From positions 992,001 through 1,056,000 of the forward strand of contig NZ_CP011308.1 of NCBI RefSeq assembly GCF_000987835.1: a stretch of 64,000 bases of DNA. Reading direction: 5' to 3'. Positions 1 through 61,780 of this stretch are shown here, piece by piece. Source of the DNA: Sulfurovum lithotrophicum. Its GTDB lineage: Bacteria > Campylobacterota > Campylobacteria > Campylobacterales > Sulfurovaceae. A program made the translations under genes and the position numbers. How positions within the stretch are numbered: the stretch's first letter is position 1; the number at the start of each line of letters is the position of its first letter. The notes beneath the pieces were generated by a model. It saw nothing but the letters and a program-made list of their open reading frames with translations. It did no database searches and had not been told where the DNA came from.

Positions 1-1
1 A

Positions 2-1978
2 CATCTTGGAAAAGACAATCTTTTTGAGAAAACACAAAATGCCATCAATAATCATGCAGTCAAATCTTTAGCATCGTGGGCATTGCAAAATATCGCTGAT
101 CTTAGTTGGAGATATGGATCATTTGATGAAATTATTATAGAGAGTGCTAGAGATGTTTTGCCACAGGTCATCAAAGATGCTATTGAAAAGTCTATGAAAG
201 AAAGGGGGAAAGAAATAGACAAGATTATAGAGAGCTATAAAAAAGAGTTTCCGTCTATGGATCGTAAGATGGCAAGAAAGATTAAGCTGCTTGAATCTCA
301 AAAATTCATTGATATTTATAGTGGTGAAGTGATCAATATAAGTGATCTTTTTAATGGCAGAGCAGATATAGAGCATGTCGTTCCACGCTCATTAGGTGGA
401 CTCAGTACCGATTACAACCTGATTATTGCCAATAGTGATACCAATATGCAAAAATCCAATCGCTTGCCTATGGATTGGCTGAGTGGGGATATTGAATATG
501 TCAAGAGGGTCGAAATGCTGTTTAATGGACATAAAATAAATTGGAAGAAACGCAAGAACCTATTGGCAACTTCACTGGATGAGATATATGTGGAGGTACA
601 GGATACCAAAGCACTCAGGGCAACAAGCTACCTTGAATCATTAGTAAGTGAAGTGCTGAAAATGTATTATCCATTTCCAAATAAAGAACACAGAAAAAAT
701 GGTGTAGCTGTACGAAATGTACCGGGTAAGACAACTTCTAAAACACGTTCCTGGCTCGGTATCAAATCCAAAAGTCGTGATACCAACTTCCATCATGCCG
801 AAGACGCACTTATCTTGGCAACACTGAATAGAGGCTGGCAAAATAGACTGCACCGTATGCTCAAAGAGAATTACGGAAAAAGTGAAGAGGAACTTCAATT
901 ACTTTGGCAAAAATATACACCGCATATAGAAGGGGTGGCAATAGCCGGCTACATAAAAGAAGCCTATGAGCGTTTTATGTCAAAAGGGGAAGAGAGCTTA
1001 TGGTATCGTGATATGTTTGGTAGTATCCGAAGTGTATCATACTGGGTCAGCAAAAAGCCACTTAGTGCTTCTTCACATAAAGATACTGTTTACTCCTCCA
1101 GGCATCGTAATCCAAATAATCCTGATAAGGTGGTGCCGACAGTTCGAAAATCAATTTTAGGTGCGTTTAATGGACTTGATATACTTAAAAACAGACATAA
1201 GTGGAATAAAGAAGAGTTTTTAAAAGTTTATGACAAAGAGATACGCCAAAAGCTTTGGCTCTATCGTTTAGATAACACCAACGATCCTGTTTATCGTGCC
1301 ATAGAAGAAAGAGCTAATACCATAGGGAATCTCATAGAAATTTATATTTATAAAGATCCTCAGCATGATAAAGCGGTGGATGAGGTGTATCAGGAAGTAA
1401 TTCGCTCATTACTTCAAAAGCCGATTACGGCAGCAGGTAAACCTGTGTATAAAACTGTATTTGTGGATGATACTTTCCTTCCGATAGAAATAGAGAGAGG
1501 TGAGAGTAATAAGGTTTTGGTGAGAACTGATGATAACTTTTTGGCTGTAATGTTTGAAAAAGGAGAAAAAGAGAAACTCAATATCAGTAAAGTTGATGTC
1601 AATTCATTGCATCGGTTAAAAAAGGAAAATGCAATGATCGTTTATCTGAACGAAGTGATCTATCTATTTAACAAAAAGAAGATCATTCATTATGGAGCAT
1701 TGAGAAGCTTTAAGATTTTAAGTAGCGGAGCTAGGTATATTTCATTATTTAATCCTCGTTTTCCTGCAAATCCTTCATCACAGCCAAAAAAATTTACAGA
1801 TGGAAAAAGTATTAAAAGTATAAGTATTGGAAGTACAACGGGGGTAATAAAAGTTCATTTGGATTTAAACGGAAAAATGAAAAGTTATCAAAAGTTTGGT
1901 TTCATTCCTAAGGAACTTGAAGCGCAATTTCTCAAAGAGTCTGGTTATGGCATCGTGGAAGACGATACGAATCACTAA
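2..1978 (+). CDS. cas9: Cas9 endonuclease, type II-C (5' end outside window)
   Basis: RNA-guided DNA nuclease of the adjoining CRISPR locus. The frame is open from base 2, so the N-terminal RuvC-I and most of the recognition lobe are missing; about 658 residues remain. Visible landmarks in order: the RuvC-II segment IIIESAR (Glu at nt 140), the HNH nickase core with EHVVPRS (His near nt 374) followed by an Asn-rich NSDTNMQKSN stretch, and RuvC-III HHAEDALILA (nt 791-820). The rest, to about nt 1978, would be the wedge and PAM-interacting region. All nuclease residues that can be seen are intact. The end overlaps cas1 by 32 nt. Type II-C is inferred from cas1-cas2 as the only adaptation genes downstream and from the repeat type. 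The full length and the start cannot be judged here. Confidence 0.95.
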   Translation, partial: HLGKDNLFEKTQNAINNHAVKSLASWALQNIADLSWRYGSFDEIIIESARDVLPQVIKDAIEKSMKERGKEIDKIIESYKKEFPSMDRKMARKIKLLESQKFIDIYSGEVINISDLFNGRADIEHVVPRSLGGLSTDYNLIIANSDTNMQKSNRLPMDWLSGDIEYVKRVEMLFNGHKINWKKRKNLLATSLDEIYVEVQDTKALRATSYLESLVSEVLKMYYPFPNKEHRKNGVAVRNVPGKTTSKTRSWLGIKSKSRDTNFHHAEDALILATLNRGWQNRLHRMLKENYGKSEEELQLLWQKYTPHIEGVAIAGYIKEAYERFMSKGEESLWYRDMFGSIRSVSYWVSKKPLSASSHKDTVYSSRHRNPNNPDKVVPTVRKSILGAFNGLDILKNRHKWNKEEFLKVYDKEIRQKLWLYRLDNTNDPVYRAIEERANTIGNLIEIYIYKDPQHDKAVDEVYQEVIRSLLQKPITAAGKPVYKTVFVDDTFLPIEIERGESNKVLVRTDDNFLAVMFEKGEKEKLNISKVDVNSLHRLKKENAMIVYLNEVIYLFNKKKIIHYGALRSFKILSSGARYISLFNPRFPANPSSQPKKFTDGKSIKSISIGSTTGVIKVHLDLNGKMKSYQKFGFIPKELEAQFLKESGYGIVEDDTNH

Positions 1979-2864
1979 GCCGTGCAGGCTTAGAATCGAT
2001 AACGGGAATCTATTGGTTGAGGATGATGAATTAAGATTTAAACTTTCATTGGAGGATACAGACAGTATTGTTTTTGAGGGAGACAGGTTTATGATCAGTG
2101 CCAAAGTACTTTCGGCATTGAGTCACTATAAGATTGCTACACTGTTTTGTGATGAATACTATTTGCCTTCCGCCATTCTGCATCCCTATCACCAAAGCTC
2201 TCTTGCTACAAAAACACTTAAAGCACAGCTTGCAGTGACACCATCTTATGCTGACAAATTATGGCAGAGGATCATCATTGCCAAGATAGGACAGCAAAGA
2301 GAGGTACTTGAAATCCTCGGAAAAGAGGCCGAAAAACTGAAACTTTACATTACACAGGTACGTGAAGCAGACAAATACGGAGCAGAAGCAAAAAGTGCCA
2401 AATACTACTGGAACAGGCTTTTTGATCAGTTGGTAAGAGAGCCTGACTCATTTGATATACGAAATCAGGCACTTAACTATGCTTATGCACTGGTACGCAG
2501 CCTGCTTACACGTGATCTGAGTGCAGCAGGGTTTTTACCTGCACTTGGTATCTGGCATGACAACAAATACAACGCTTTTAATCTCAGCGATGATTTGATA
2601 GAGCCATTCCGTCCAATACTTGATATCGGTGTTTACCGTATACTTGAATTTCATCCTGATGAAGAGGTGCTTACTCCACAAATGAAAAAAGAACTTATCA
2701 ATCTACTTGATATTGTATATATAGAATATGAAAAAGGTAGTTCGAGTCTGCGAAATGTCTCCAGGCTTTATGTACAGTTTTTCAAACGATCTGTAGAGCA
2801 GGGTGATGCTGAGTTGTTGAGTTTCCCGGTTTTTGATATAAAGAAATTAGATGAGTGCCTTTAG
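1947..2864 (+). CDS. cas1: CRISPR-associated endonuclease Cas1 (type II)
   Basis: Integrase subunit of the spacer-acquisition complex. I take the ATG at 1947 (MASWKTIRIT), which gives 305 aa, the usual size for type II Cas1, and matches the family N-terminus; upstream starts in the same frame would lie deeper inside cas9. The metal-binding triad is visible: Glu147 (GAEAKSAKYYW), His204 (GIWHDNKYN) and Glu219 (DLIEPFRP). The gene begins inside the last codons of cas9 (32-nt overlap) and its end overlaps cas2 by 14 nt, so the three genes are surely one transcript with coupled translation. Nothing suggests inactivation. Confidence 0.96.
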   Translation: MASWKTIRITKPCRLRIDNGNLLVEDDELRFKLSLEDTDSIVFEGDRFMISAKVLSALSHYKIATLFCDEYYLPSAILHPYHQSSLATKTLKAQLAVTPSYADKLWQRIIIAKIGQQREVLEILGKEAEKLKLYITQVREADKYGAEAKSAKYYWNRLFDQLVREPDSFDIRNQALNYAYALVRSLLTRDLSAAGFLPALGIWHDNKYNAFNLSDDLIEPFRPILDIGVYRILEFHPDEEVLTPQMKKELINLLDIVYIEYEKGSSSLRNVSRLYVQFFKRSVEQGDAELLSFPVFDIKKLDECL

Positions 2865-3183
2865 GATCATGTGGCTTATAGTAATGTTTGATCTGCCAAC
2901 ACAGACCAAAAAAGATCGTAAGCGTTATCGATGGTTCTCCAAGCATCTTGATACAGAGAGTTATATACGTTTACAGTATTCCATTTATGCCAAAGTATTC
3001 AACAGTATAGAGTCTGCCAATTATGGAAAAAAACGATTACGTAATTTTCTTAATACCAATGTCAAAAAAGGTAATGTCAGGATATTGATGTTTACCGATG
3101 CACAGTTTGGGAAAATGGAGATAATTATAGGAGAACAGTCATCTCAAGAAGAGATAGTACAGCCAACACTTTTTGATTTTTGA
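2851..3183 (+). CDS. cas2: CRISPR-associated protein Cas2
   Basis: Small structural partner of Cas1 in the adaptation complex. 110 aa with ATG start. The N-terminal strand IMWLIVMFDLP carries the conserved Asp that follows the hydrophobic strand, and the order of beta-alpha-beta elements fits the ferredoxin-like Cas2 fold. It overlaps the end of cas1 by 14 nt. It is the last cas gene before the tracrRNA and the array; the absence of csn2 or cas4 after it supports type II-C. Confidence 0.94.
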   Translation: MSAFRIMWLIVMFDLPTQTKKDRKRYRWFSKHLDTESYIRLQYSIYAKVFNSIESANYGKKRLRNFLNTNVKKGNVRILMFTDAQFGKMEIIIGEQSSQEEIVQPTLFDF

Positions 3184-3202
3184 TAAAACTTCAGAATTAT
3201 TA

Positions 3203-3234
3203 TAAAAAGAGGAAGTCTATCCGAAGATAAACTT
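3203..3234 (-). terminator. Intrinsic terminator of tracrRNA
   Basis: On the minus strand AAGTTTATC, TTCG and GATAGACTT form a 9-bp stem (one G-U pair) with a UUCG loop, followed by CCTCTTTTT. It would also function as the 3' hairpin of the tracrRNA bound by Cas9. Confidence 0.85.
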
Positions 3235-3300
3235 TATAATGGTTGCTATAACAGCAACTTGATTTTAAGACCCCTCTTAAACCGCCACCTGTTATAACAA
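3203..3300 (-). ncRNA. tracrRNA for the type II-C Cas9
   Basis: Trans-activating RNA read on the minus strand, antisense in direction to the array. Its first part (complement of 3262-3298) is an anti-repeat. It matches the CRISPR repeat except for a central one-versus-two base bulge, a G-U wobble at repeat base 1 and the last base. Next comes a nexus-like hairpin (3242-3258, stem GTTGCT/AGCAAC, loop 5 nt). A terminator hairpin (3213-3234) follows, with a UUCG tetraloop, a 9-bp stem and then CCTCTTTTT. The anti-repeat ends UUAAAAU, as in the S. pyogenes and C. jejuni tracrRNAs I know. Ends are inferred from the -10 position and the T-run; length is about 98 nt. Confidence 0.9.
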
Positions 3301-3305
3301 CCTTC

Positions 3306-3334
3306 ATTTTATCAAAAATTTCATAAAAAGACAA
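3306..3334 (-). promoter_or_regulatory. Sigma-70 promoter of tracrRNA
   Basis: On the minus strand a -35 TTGTCT (3329-3334) and a -10 TAAAAT (3306-3311) are spaced by 17 bp, with an extended TGA before the -10. The start would fall near 3299-3300, exactly at the 5' edge of the anti-repeat. The AT-rich stretch 3301-3385 therefore serves both this promoter and, probably, the leader of the array. Confidence 0.75.
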
Positions 3335-3385
3335 TAGATTTAAGAAAAATAGATAATTTTTTAGAAACTTAGAAAATTTTTAATA

Positions 3386-4939
3386 GTTTTAAGACCCCTC
3401 CAAACCGCCACCTGTTATAATAGATGTGCCCGCCCCTATGTCGTTGGTTGAGTTTTAAGACCCCTCCAAACCGCCACCTGTTATAATGATTTTAAGGTGA
3501 TATCTCTTGCCGGCTATGTTTTAAGACCCCTCCAAACCGCCACCTGTTATAATGTGACATGCTCCAAGGCGGTTATCCTGCCAGTTTTAAGACCCCTCCA
3601 AACCGCCACCTGTTATAATAAAGAAAATTATCGACAACATGACATCTGAGTTTTAAGACCCCTCCAAACCGCCACCTGTTATAATATACCCCATCTGGGG
3701 CAGTTGCTGTAGGTTGTTTTAAGACCCCTCCAAACCGCCACCTGTTATAATAGAAACAAAGTCGATCAGTACGAAAAAGAGGTTTTAAGACCCCTCCAAA
3801 CCGCCACCTGTTATAATCAAAGACAACGGATGGATAGACCTTATATCGTTTTAAGACCCCTCCAAACCGCCACCTGTTATAATTCATTTTGACACTACTT
3901 TCTGGCGGGTTGTGTTTTAAGACCCCTCCAAACCGCCACCTGTTATAATAGTAAACGATGGAATAGTCACCCGCGCAGGGTTTTAAGACCCCTCCAAACC
4001 GCCACCTGTTATAATTTGGAGATAGAGGAGCATAACAAAAACAGGGTTTTAAGACCCCTCCAAACCGCCACCTGTTATAATCTATAATCACGACTAGCCC
4101 GCGCCCAAATCGTTTTAAGACCCCTCCAAACCGCCACCTGTTATAATCGTAGAATACCGCGTTAGGTACTTCCAGTTGTTTTAAGACCCCTCCAAACCGC
4201 CACCTGTTATAATGATATCCGGTGTTGCCGTACCGTCAAGATTGTTTTAAGACCCCTCCAAACCGCCACCTGTTATAATTCACGCGGTGGGTATCGCGTT
4301 CGCTATGCTGTTTTAAGACCCCTCCAAACCGCCACCTGTTATAATAGATGTTAGCGGGGACAGCGCAGAAACCGTGTTTTAAGACCCCTCCAAACCGCCA
4401 CCTGTTATAATTCACGCGGTGGGTATCGCGTTCGCTATGCTGTTTTAAGACCCCTCCAAACCGCCACCTGTTATAATGATCGTTAATGAGGTTCCCGAAG
4501 CGGTCCTGTTTTAAGACCCCTCCAAACCGCCACCTGTTATAATCATGTTTTCATAAACGCGGTCCACCATTTCGTTTTAAGACCCCTCCAAACCGCCACC
4601 TGTTATAATACTTTAATTATTAAGGAGATATAGAATGGCGTTTTAAGACCCCTCCAAACCGCCACCTGTTATAATCGGTGATGGGATAATGTCAAAAATA
4701 ATCATGTTTTAAGACCCCTCCAAACCGCCACCTGTTATAATGGCACTACTGAATTTGGCAATGACTACTACGTTTTAAGACCCCTCCAAACCGCCACCTG
4801 TTATAATGAAAAAGAGATTGATATACTGTATAATATGGTTTTAAGACCCCTCCAAACCGCCACCTGTTATAATAAAGAAAATAATCGACAACATGACATC
4901 AGAGTTTTAAGACCCCTCCAAACCGCCACCTGTTATAAT
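3386..4939 (+). CRISPR. Type II-C CRISPR array, 24 repeats and 23 spacers
   Basis: The repeat is 36 bp, beginning GTTTTAAGACCCCTCC and ending GCCACCTGTTATAAT. The first copy is at 3386 and the last at 4904, with a strict 66-bp period, so every spacer is 30 bp. All 24 copies look identical to me, so no decayed end marks the leader-distal side; the AT-rich flank before 3386 is the better leader candidate. Spacers 14 (4280-4309) and 16 (4412-4441) are identical. Spacers 4 (3620-3649) and 23 (4874-4903) differ at only two bases. Spacer 19 (4610-4639) contains a ribosome-binding site plus ATG. The repeat's last nine bases, TGTTATAAT, are a perfect extended -10, so each spacer may be transcribed from the repeat before it. 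Confidence 0.98.
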
Positions 4940-5116: not shown

Positions 5117-5204
5117 GTGACAATGACCATAGGCAGCTTGAAAGTTCTGCACCGTCCAGTCTGCCGCGTCCATTACGTAAACTGCCGCATAGGCAGCTTG
5201 GAAG
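5117..5204 (+). CRISPR. Orphan type I-F-like two-repeat CRISPR unit (altered repeats)
   Basis: The 28 bp at 5177-5204 read GTAAACTGCCGCATAGGCAG then CTTGGAAG. This matches the known I-F repeat pattern (GTTCACTGCCG..TAGGCAGCTTAGAAA) at about 24 of 28 positions and keeps the CTGCC/GGCAG hairpin. Exactly 60 bp upstream, 5117-5144 shares the 3' half (CATAGGCAGCTTGAAAG) but has lost the 5' stem arm. The 32 bp between (5145-5176) has the standard I-F spacer length. No I-F cas genes or Tn7-like genes are in the window. It could be a relic array end, a mini-array served in trans, or chance; the paired 28/32 geometry argues against chance. Confidence 0.6.
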
Positions 5205-60415: not shown

Positions 60416-61269
60416 CAGTTTTTAATCCCATACGCTTTTTTAAGTGCTTCGATCTCATAATTGGATCCAAAGAAGCATGGACTGGTGTCATGCGGATGTG
60501 CAGGGACGAGTTCCATAAGCCTTTTCCCTTTAGCATCGATCGCCTGGCCGCCTGCCTGCTCATAGATGAAAGCAAAAGGGATCACTTCGAAGAGCTGTCT
60601 GAGTTTGCCATGAGGTTTGTCCGATGTACCTGGGTAGGAGAAGAGTCCGCCGCCTTTGAGCAGGATCTGGTGCAGGTCAGGGACCATGCCTCCCGAATAG
60701 CGCAGCCTGTAACCTTCGGCAAAGAGATCGTCCACAAAATTCTTGTGATAGTCGCACCAGTTCTGCTGGGTGCCCCCGGGAGCGTTGAGCTTTCCTTTTT
60801 CTTTGAGCACAACTTCTTTGGACACTAGGTTGAAAAAACCGTCCTGTGCACGGTAGTGCTTTGGCCTCTCACCTTTGACGGCACGCATGATCTCGATGCG
60901 CGGTCCGTAGACCACGTAGGCAGATGCCACAAGGTTCTCACCTTTGGGTTCGCCATCGTATATCCCGAAGATGGAACCTACAGAGAGATTGACATCTGCA
61001 AGGCTCGAACCGTCAAGCGGATCGTAGCAGACAGTATACTTTCCGTCGTTGTGCAGTGGCATTACCCCTTCTTTTTCCTCGCTGATCAGGTCTTTGACCA
61101 GAGAGACCGACCTAAATGCCTCTTCGATGATGTAGTCGCTCTTGACGTCGAGCTTGAGCTGGTCCTCTCCTGAAGAGTTCTCGCTTTGGGAGTAGCCGAG
61201 ATCTTCGGTCTTGATGGCGTGGTCGATCTTGAATGCGATCATTTCAATGGTTTCAAAAATTGTAAGCAT
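60415..61269 (-). CDS. fbp: Fructose-1,6-bisphosphatase class I
   Basis: 284 aa from the ATG at 61269. Metal-binding motif [20 protein letters not shown] near residue 92; the closing [20 protein letters not shown] and the catalytic residues are present. A gluconeogenic enzyme, needed in an autotroph running the reductive TCA cycle. It follows mobB by 13 bp and precedes the small cysteine-containing gene with overlap. Confidence 0.95.
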
Positions 61270-61282
61270 GAGTGTACCTCTT

Positions 61283-61780
61283 TTATATGGTGGTGGCGTT
61301 GTTCTTGATCCAGTCAATGATCTGTTCAAGGTTGTTCAGGTCGAGAATGTCAATGTTACTGGGTATCGTATAGTCTGCAGGGTTTACGGTGTGGTCGATG
61401 GCGATAGCTTCGGAGCAGTCAAAGTAGTCCTTATCGATCTTATTCCTGAAAATGGCGATACGCGGCAGTGGCAGTGTTTTGAGTCCCTCAACAAGCAATA
61501 TGTCGAATTCATTGATCATGGCAACGATCTCATCAAGACTTTTCTCTCTCTGTGAGAAGTAGGTAGTACGGGTAGGAGATGTAACGACCACTTCCGCACC
61601 GGTCTGATAGAACTTGTAACTGTCTTTTCCTTCCACATCGAAGACGGCCTTGCTCTTGGGATCATTTTTGATGATAGCGACCTTCTGTGTCTTGATGAGT
61701 TCTCTTGAGACTTTCTCCACCAGTGTCGTTTTCCCGCTCCCTGAAGGACCGGTGAATGCTACGGCTACTCTTTTATTCAC
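61283..61780 (-). CDS. mobB: Molybdopterin-guanine dinucleotide biosynthesis protein B
   Basis: About 165 aa from the GTG at 61780 (AAAGG upstream); an ATG at 61834 lies inside the palindromic element and is less likely. The P-loop is [16 protein letters not shown] at the N-terminus, followed by a late [19 protein letters not shown] GTPase that helps load molybdenum cofactor into enzymes such as nitrate reductase, which fits the NapL-like gene. First in an operon with fbp. Confidence 0.87.

Follow-up and report, generated by a model that had tools for sequence, protein, structure and literature searches.

In Campylobacter jejuni, transcript mapping has shown that every repeat contains a -10 box from which a separate crRNA is started, and that RNase III completes the crRNA (PMC3656092). 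The CRISPR-Cas locus of the sulfur-oxidizing bacterium Sulfurovum lithotrophicum analyzed here lies in a stretch of 64,000 nucleotides (positions 992,001 to 1,056,000 of NZ_CP011308.1), which is called the window below. It resembles the type II-C system of C. jejuni: cas9, cas1 and cas2 are the only cas genes, the repeats carry a -10 box, a separate tracrRNA contains an anti-repeat, and RNase III is available (gene at genome positions 61204-61566). In contrast to the C. jejuni system, the array of the window runs with the cas genes, and the anti-repeat spans the whole repeat.

The guide resembles those of the SauCas9-like group (clade V) described by Gasiunas et al. (PMC7606464), in which the duplex is followed by two hairpins, one nexus-like and one larger. 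This likeness concerns the guide layout alone. A single hairpin after the nexus is thus an arrangement already described. The initial annotation had regarded it as unusual, but the closest relatives of the system are built in the same way.

Two further reports bear on the array. As a rule, type II-C arrays run opposite to the cas genes, with 100% disagreement of the two directions in the experimental set (PMC6737040; see also PMC3936727); this rule is descriptive and does not define the subtype. On the suppression of extraneous crRNA (ecrRNA) in type II-C systems, Feussner et al. (PMC12080349) report first-repeat decay, upstream terminators, or a leader hairpin. The window is similar in having a spacerless repeat at the transcription-proximal end and promoters in the repeats. 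However, its first repeat is intact, its leader folds no better than shuffled sequences, and the altered element is the -10 box of the anti-repeat. The acquisition polarity in their scheme also differs from that suggested below for the branch of the window.

The features of the locus are listed in Table 1. No csn2, cas4 or any further cas gene was found between the array and the gene for a WYL regulator upstream of cas9. Cas9 has the HNH and RuvC domains with intact catalytic residues (TIGR01865, HNH_4), and D9, E532, H610, H750 and D753 are invariant in eight relatives. All Cas9s of solved structure are remote from this protein. Its relatives (Cas9 57-69% identical) come from Sulfurovum, Sulfurospirillum and metagenome-assembled genomes of other Campylobacterales, and the order of the parts is identical in them. 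This comparison upholds the earlier assignment of the enzyme to Campylobacterota.

Table 1. Features of the type II-C locus; coordinates are those of the window unless a locus handle is given.
Feature	Coordinates	Strand	Basis and remarks
cas9, 3' part	1..1978	+	Whole gene L009:8547-11978, 1143 aa; TIGR01865, 383 bits over the whole gene; HNH_4
cas1	1896..2864	+	TIGR03639 (type II Cas1), 240 bits; listed ORF, true start probably further in
cas2	2851..3183	+	TIGR01573, 59.5 bits
tracrRNA (anti-repeat, nexus hairpin, UUCG-capped hairpin, U-run)	3203..3298	-	About 94-98 nt; held-out covariance model, covariation
Third hairpin, AAGUUUAUC-UUCG-GAUAGACUU, then CCUCUUUUU; putative terminator	3212..3233	-	9 bp, cUUCGg loop
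Nexus hairpin, GUUGCU-GUUAU-AGCAAC	3241..3258	-	6 bp and a possible G·U
Anti-repeat	3261..3298	-	Duplex fold; per-position comparison (17 systems)
tracrRNA promoter, TTGTCT-17-(TGA)TAAAAT	3306..3334	-	Consensus scan and -10 box comparison; predicted start about 3298-3299
Promoter boxes	TTGTCT 3334-3329; 17-nt spacer; TAAAAT 3311-3306, preceded by TGA	-	Consensus scan
Leader	3299..3385	+	Leader comparison; close-clade conservation of the bases just ahead of repeat 1 (AGAAAATTTTTAATA)
CRISPR array	3386..4939	+	24 identical 36-nt repeats, 23 spacers of 30 nt

On the minus strand, the gap between cas2 and the array contains, in order, TTGTCT-17-TGATAAAAT, the anti-repeat, the 6-bp hairpin, the 9-bp UUCG hairpin and CCUCUUUUU. 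The initial annotation had read these elements as a complete tracrRNA gene that has its own promoter and converges on cas2, and the comparison with 16 relatives bears this out. A covariance model built from nine relatives, with the window excluded, matched the window at minus 3298-3205 (84.8 bits, E 5e-17). This was the single full-length match in the whole 2.2-Mb genome; the array repeats gave weak partial matches only, and the same genome-wide search found no second tracrRNA. In a DNA search of the genome, copies of the repeat were detected only in the array and in this anti-repeat, which lies outside the array. In Rfam, no match in the region reached the gathering score, and the only match at E up to 10 was a chance snoRNA.

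When the anti-repeat was cofolded with the repeat, as had been proposed earlier, the full 36-nt repeat was paired at -56.7 kcal/mol; across 13 systems, the energy of this duplex ranges from -43 to -57 kcal/mol. The location of the anti-repeat and its G·U wobble, which is the sole G·U and the last pair, were as described previously. However, the interruption taken for a central bulge is a 1x2 internal loop (C versus AA).

The hairpins were examined by covariation. With nine sequences, aligned by MAFFT under one fixed structure, 97.2% of the cells were paired and 11 of 16 pairs had changed on both sides. None of 500 shuffles was as good, and shifting the partner by 1-3 columns destroyed the signal. 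With 13 systems, the 6-bp nexus-like hairpin, which was found where it had been placed, showed compensatory changes in five of six pairs (78/78 cells paired), and the third hairpin showed them in all nine pairs (115/117 cells paired). None of 10000 shuffles was as good in the 13-sequence test, in which the arms were taken from each sequence's own hairpin and pairing is thus favored; the nine-sequence MAFFT test is not fully subject to this bias.

The predicted promoter was evaluated in the same manner. In 16 of the 17 systems, a -10 box, defined as at least five of six matches to TATAAT with A2 and T6 fixed, precedes the anti-repeat by 4-13 nt (shuffled sequences: mean 3.9, maximum 9). In control windows shifted upstream, it was found in 0-4 of 15. 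The TTGTCT-17-TAAAAT promoter with TGn is located as the initial annotation had it, and the gene has its own promoter as judged by comparison. Comparison among relatives is what establishes the gene, the promoter box, the pairing, both hairpins and the direction of the array relative to the cas genes. On this basis the region is firmly established as a genuine tracrRNA gene of a known kind. We consider it nearly certain that it supplies the tracrRNA for a type II-C CRISPR-Cas9 system in a Sulfurovum-like member of the Campylobacterota, that it has a promoter of its own in the gap separating cas2 from the array, and that the system belongs to a branch whose array appears flipped.

The last hairpin had been described as a UUCG-capped terminator. 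The hairpin is conserved, but it has two G-C pairs only and is too AU-rich, and the terminator scan gave no call. Furthermore, in two relatives (L075 and L076) the third hairpin is kept and the U-run is absent. The conserved part is thus the hairpin; it is a putative terminator, and transcription may end there. A 13-nt inverted repeat flanks the tracrRNA (3176-3188 / 3307-3319); it consists of the codons for the LFDF end of Cas2 and the AT-rich -10 region, and was taken as chance.

These features suggest the following scheme. The tracrRNA would be transcribed leftwards from its own promoter, and its anti-repeat would base-pair with the repeat-derived portion of every crRNA. By analogy with C. 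jejuni, transcription of the crRNAs probably runs rightwards, starting from the -10 box that ends every repeat. RNase III would then trim the tracrRNA:crRNA duplex, and the nexus with the one further hairpin would serve as the handle by which Cas9 is loaded. The tracrRNA is a putative ready scaffold for this Cas9 branch.

Two other readings of the region were weighed against this scheme. The anti-repeat lies close to the array and differs from the repeat at 10 positions in an ungapped alignment, as a degenerate copy would, so it could be a decayed or inverted terminal repeat devoid of RNA function. This is very improbable: across 13-17 systems, the promoter box, the nexus and the third hairpin show both conservation and covariation, and this covariation refutes the decayed-repeat reading. 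In addition, the last 12 positions of the anti-repeat follow the repeat's own changes with one exception, and the genome holds no other tracrRNA candidate. The other reading concerns the fold of the free RNA. In the absence of a partner, the predicted fold of the 98-nt RNA is another one, with the nexus paired to the 12 nt at the 5' end, and this counts against the scheme. Such a fold might be a functional off-state that is opened only by crRNA binding; it is the predicted minimum-energy fold in eight of ten members of the close clade, and that of the window beats nearly all shuffles (z -3.7). However, its covariation is at chance (2/10 pairs; 6851 of 10000 permutations as good), L046, L075 and relatives further removed have lost it, and the palindrome GUUAUAAC present in both partners gives the alternative pairing for free. 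For want of covariation support the alternative fold was rejected, and we regard an off-state as unlikely.

All 24 repeats of the array end in an extended -10 box, TGTTATAAT, and the repeats of the relatives end in TANAAT or TATACT. Both these boxes and the complementarity to the tracrRNA indicate that the array of the window runs rightward, with the cas genes. Among 32 Cas9 loci of this order, 14 were co-directional and 18 opposite, where direction was read from the repeats and tracrRNAs, from one or two repeats where the array is short or masked (L046, L082, L084 and L089), and L098 and L100, which lack a clear array, were entered as opposite with their clade. All 14 co-directional loci, which thus depart from the published rule, fall into one clade (SH-aLRT 99), so that one change of direction is enough to account for the tree of 32. 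By this comparison, the array in this Cas9 branch appears to have been turned round relative to other type II-C systems.

The decay of the terminal repeats differs between the two groups. Five arrays of the co-directional clade have more mismatches in the last-transcribed repeat than in the first (L036, 6; L043, 1; L075, 9; L081, 6; L083, 5 versus 1), and none has more in the first. Among the opposite-direction arrays, the first repeat is degenerate in six (L035, L038, L041, L093, L095 and L099), L093 and L095 being at the 12-mismatch limit. Decay marks the old end, and therefore acquisition probably takes place at the transcription-proximal end in the branch of the window. Within the close clade, conservation is seen in the leader beside repeat 1 but not in the trailer. 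With the array in this direction, the leader adjoins the tracrRNA at the transcription-proximal end and, if the decay pattern is read in this way, so would the acquisition end. A terminator in the leader was rejected, as the leader folds worse than most shuffles.

The flip breaks the published rule that is used for assigning the direction of type II-C arrays. For this branch, the direction of the crRNAs would therefore be assigned wrongly, and hence also the protospacers and PAMs. Moreover, the flip would bring the acquisition end to the side on which array transcription starts, in a system with promoters in the repeats.

In the 17 systems, the anti-repeat tracks the repeat almost perfectly over the last 12 positions, including the TATAAT, TACAAT and TAAAAT variants. 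It departs from the repeat at position 36, where the -10 box has its last T; this base is changed in 15 of 17 systems (14 times T to C), while each of the other last 12 positions is changed in two at most; as the systems are related, these counts do not represent 17 independent events. In the window, the array-strand end of the anti-repeat is TGTTATAAC, where the repeats have TGTTATAAT. The last T is the most conserved base of a -10 box, and T to C removes it in the DNA. In the RNA, the same change turns A-U into G·U and the pair is kept. The change should thus preserve the pairing and kill the promoter. An active box at the anti-repeat would transcribe the leader into repeat 1 and give an extraneous crRNA. 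Since the first repeat is leader-adjacent and intact, it is not the safeguard.

These points suggest, tentatively, that with the array flipped the anti-repeat, a repeat copy that brings its own promoter, faces the leader and repeat 1 in the crRNA direction, and that this promoter is silenced by a T to C change hidden as G·U, so that no extraneous crRNA is made. We hold this combined reading to be possible but doubtful. If true, it would be a fourth way of handling extraneous crRNA. The initial annotation had missed both the array direction and this opposite-strand meaning of the wobble. The same T to C change is found in three loci with opposite-direction arrays (L078, L080 and L084); therefore, it is independent of the flip. 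A reading with close to an even chance is that the change, a G in the tracrRNA, was kept as the start base of the tracrRNA, and not for silencing the opposite-strand -10 box that comes with the repeat sequence. Of the 14 systems with T to C, 12 have the G at a distance of 7-9 nt from the -10 hexamer, the position expected for the start, and L036 and L083, which lack T to C, have 11-12 nt between box and anti-repeat. However, the complement of the repeat already provides an A, an equally good initiator, and A to G is not needed for starting; moreover, L082 keeps the G at a spacing of 12 nt and L089 at 9.

In two opposite-direction loci, the tracrRNA immediately precedes cas9 and is encoded on the opposite strand (L097:5773-5806 and L099:10648-10681). 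Their anti-repeats keep TATAAT, as read by eye, and this -10 box points at cas9. The anti-repeat may double as a cas9 promoter in these loci.

Spacers 4 and 23 (3620-3649 and 4874-4903) have the same sequence except for two bases. They were either acquired separately from variants of a single target or arose by duplication and then diverged; viral contigs contained no exact match to them. Spacers 14 and 16 (4280-4309 and 4412-4441) are identical, a duplication within the array. No protospacer from which a PAM could be read was detected for any spacer tried among 50,697 phage records, in the window and the fetched loci, or, for two spacer patterns searched by exact matching, in viral contigs. 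A diverged repeat-like sequence in the tracrRNA orientation (L036:15278-15313, 10 mismatches) lies 7 kb from the array of G039 and is a vestige or chance.

The WYL-WCX-HTH regulator gene (L009:7524-8441) precedes cas9 and lies immediately to the left of the window. Its homologue was found in 11 of 61 sampled genomes of the genus, and cas genes adjoin it in all 11. They belong to subtypes II-C (four genomes, including that of the window), V-A (three), I-F (two) and I-B (two), where V-A was called in G565 and G030 because the starts of Cas1 and Cas4 resemble those of G009. WYL regulators at defence loci are already known from the BrxR family (PMC9122601) and CapW (PMC9122588). There, too, a WYL-WCX-HTH protein stands beside a defence operon; the difference is that the WYL gene here immediately precedes cas genes, which within a single genus belong to four CRISPR subtypes. 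It may be either a shared CRISPR regulator or the marker of a site of CRISPR exchange. Directly behind the II-C array, at 5182-5204, there is an exact piece (23/23 nt) of a type I-F repeat (L127), identical to the repeat of the array beside the WYL gene in G566, and 5122-5144 is a degenerate copy of the type I-F repeat. This type I-F relic is a sign that other CRISPR types may have occupied the site earlier. In another genome of the same genus, the WYL gene (L037:6119-7105, 79% identical) stands beside a different II-C system of opposite direction, an apparent swap of CRISPR cassettes.
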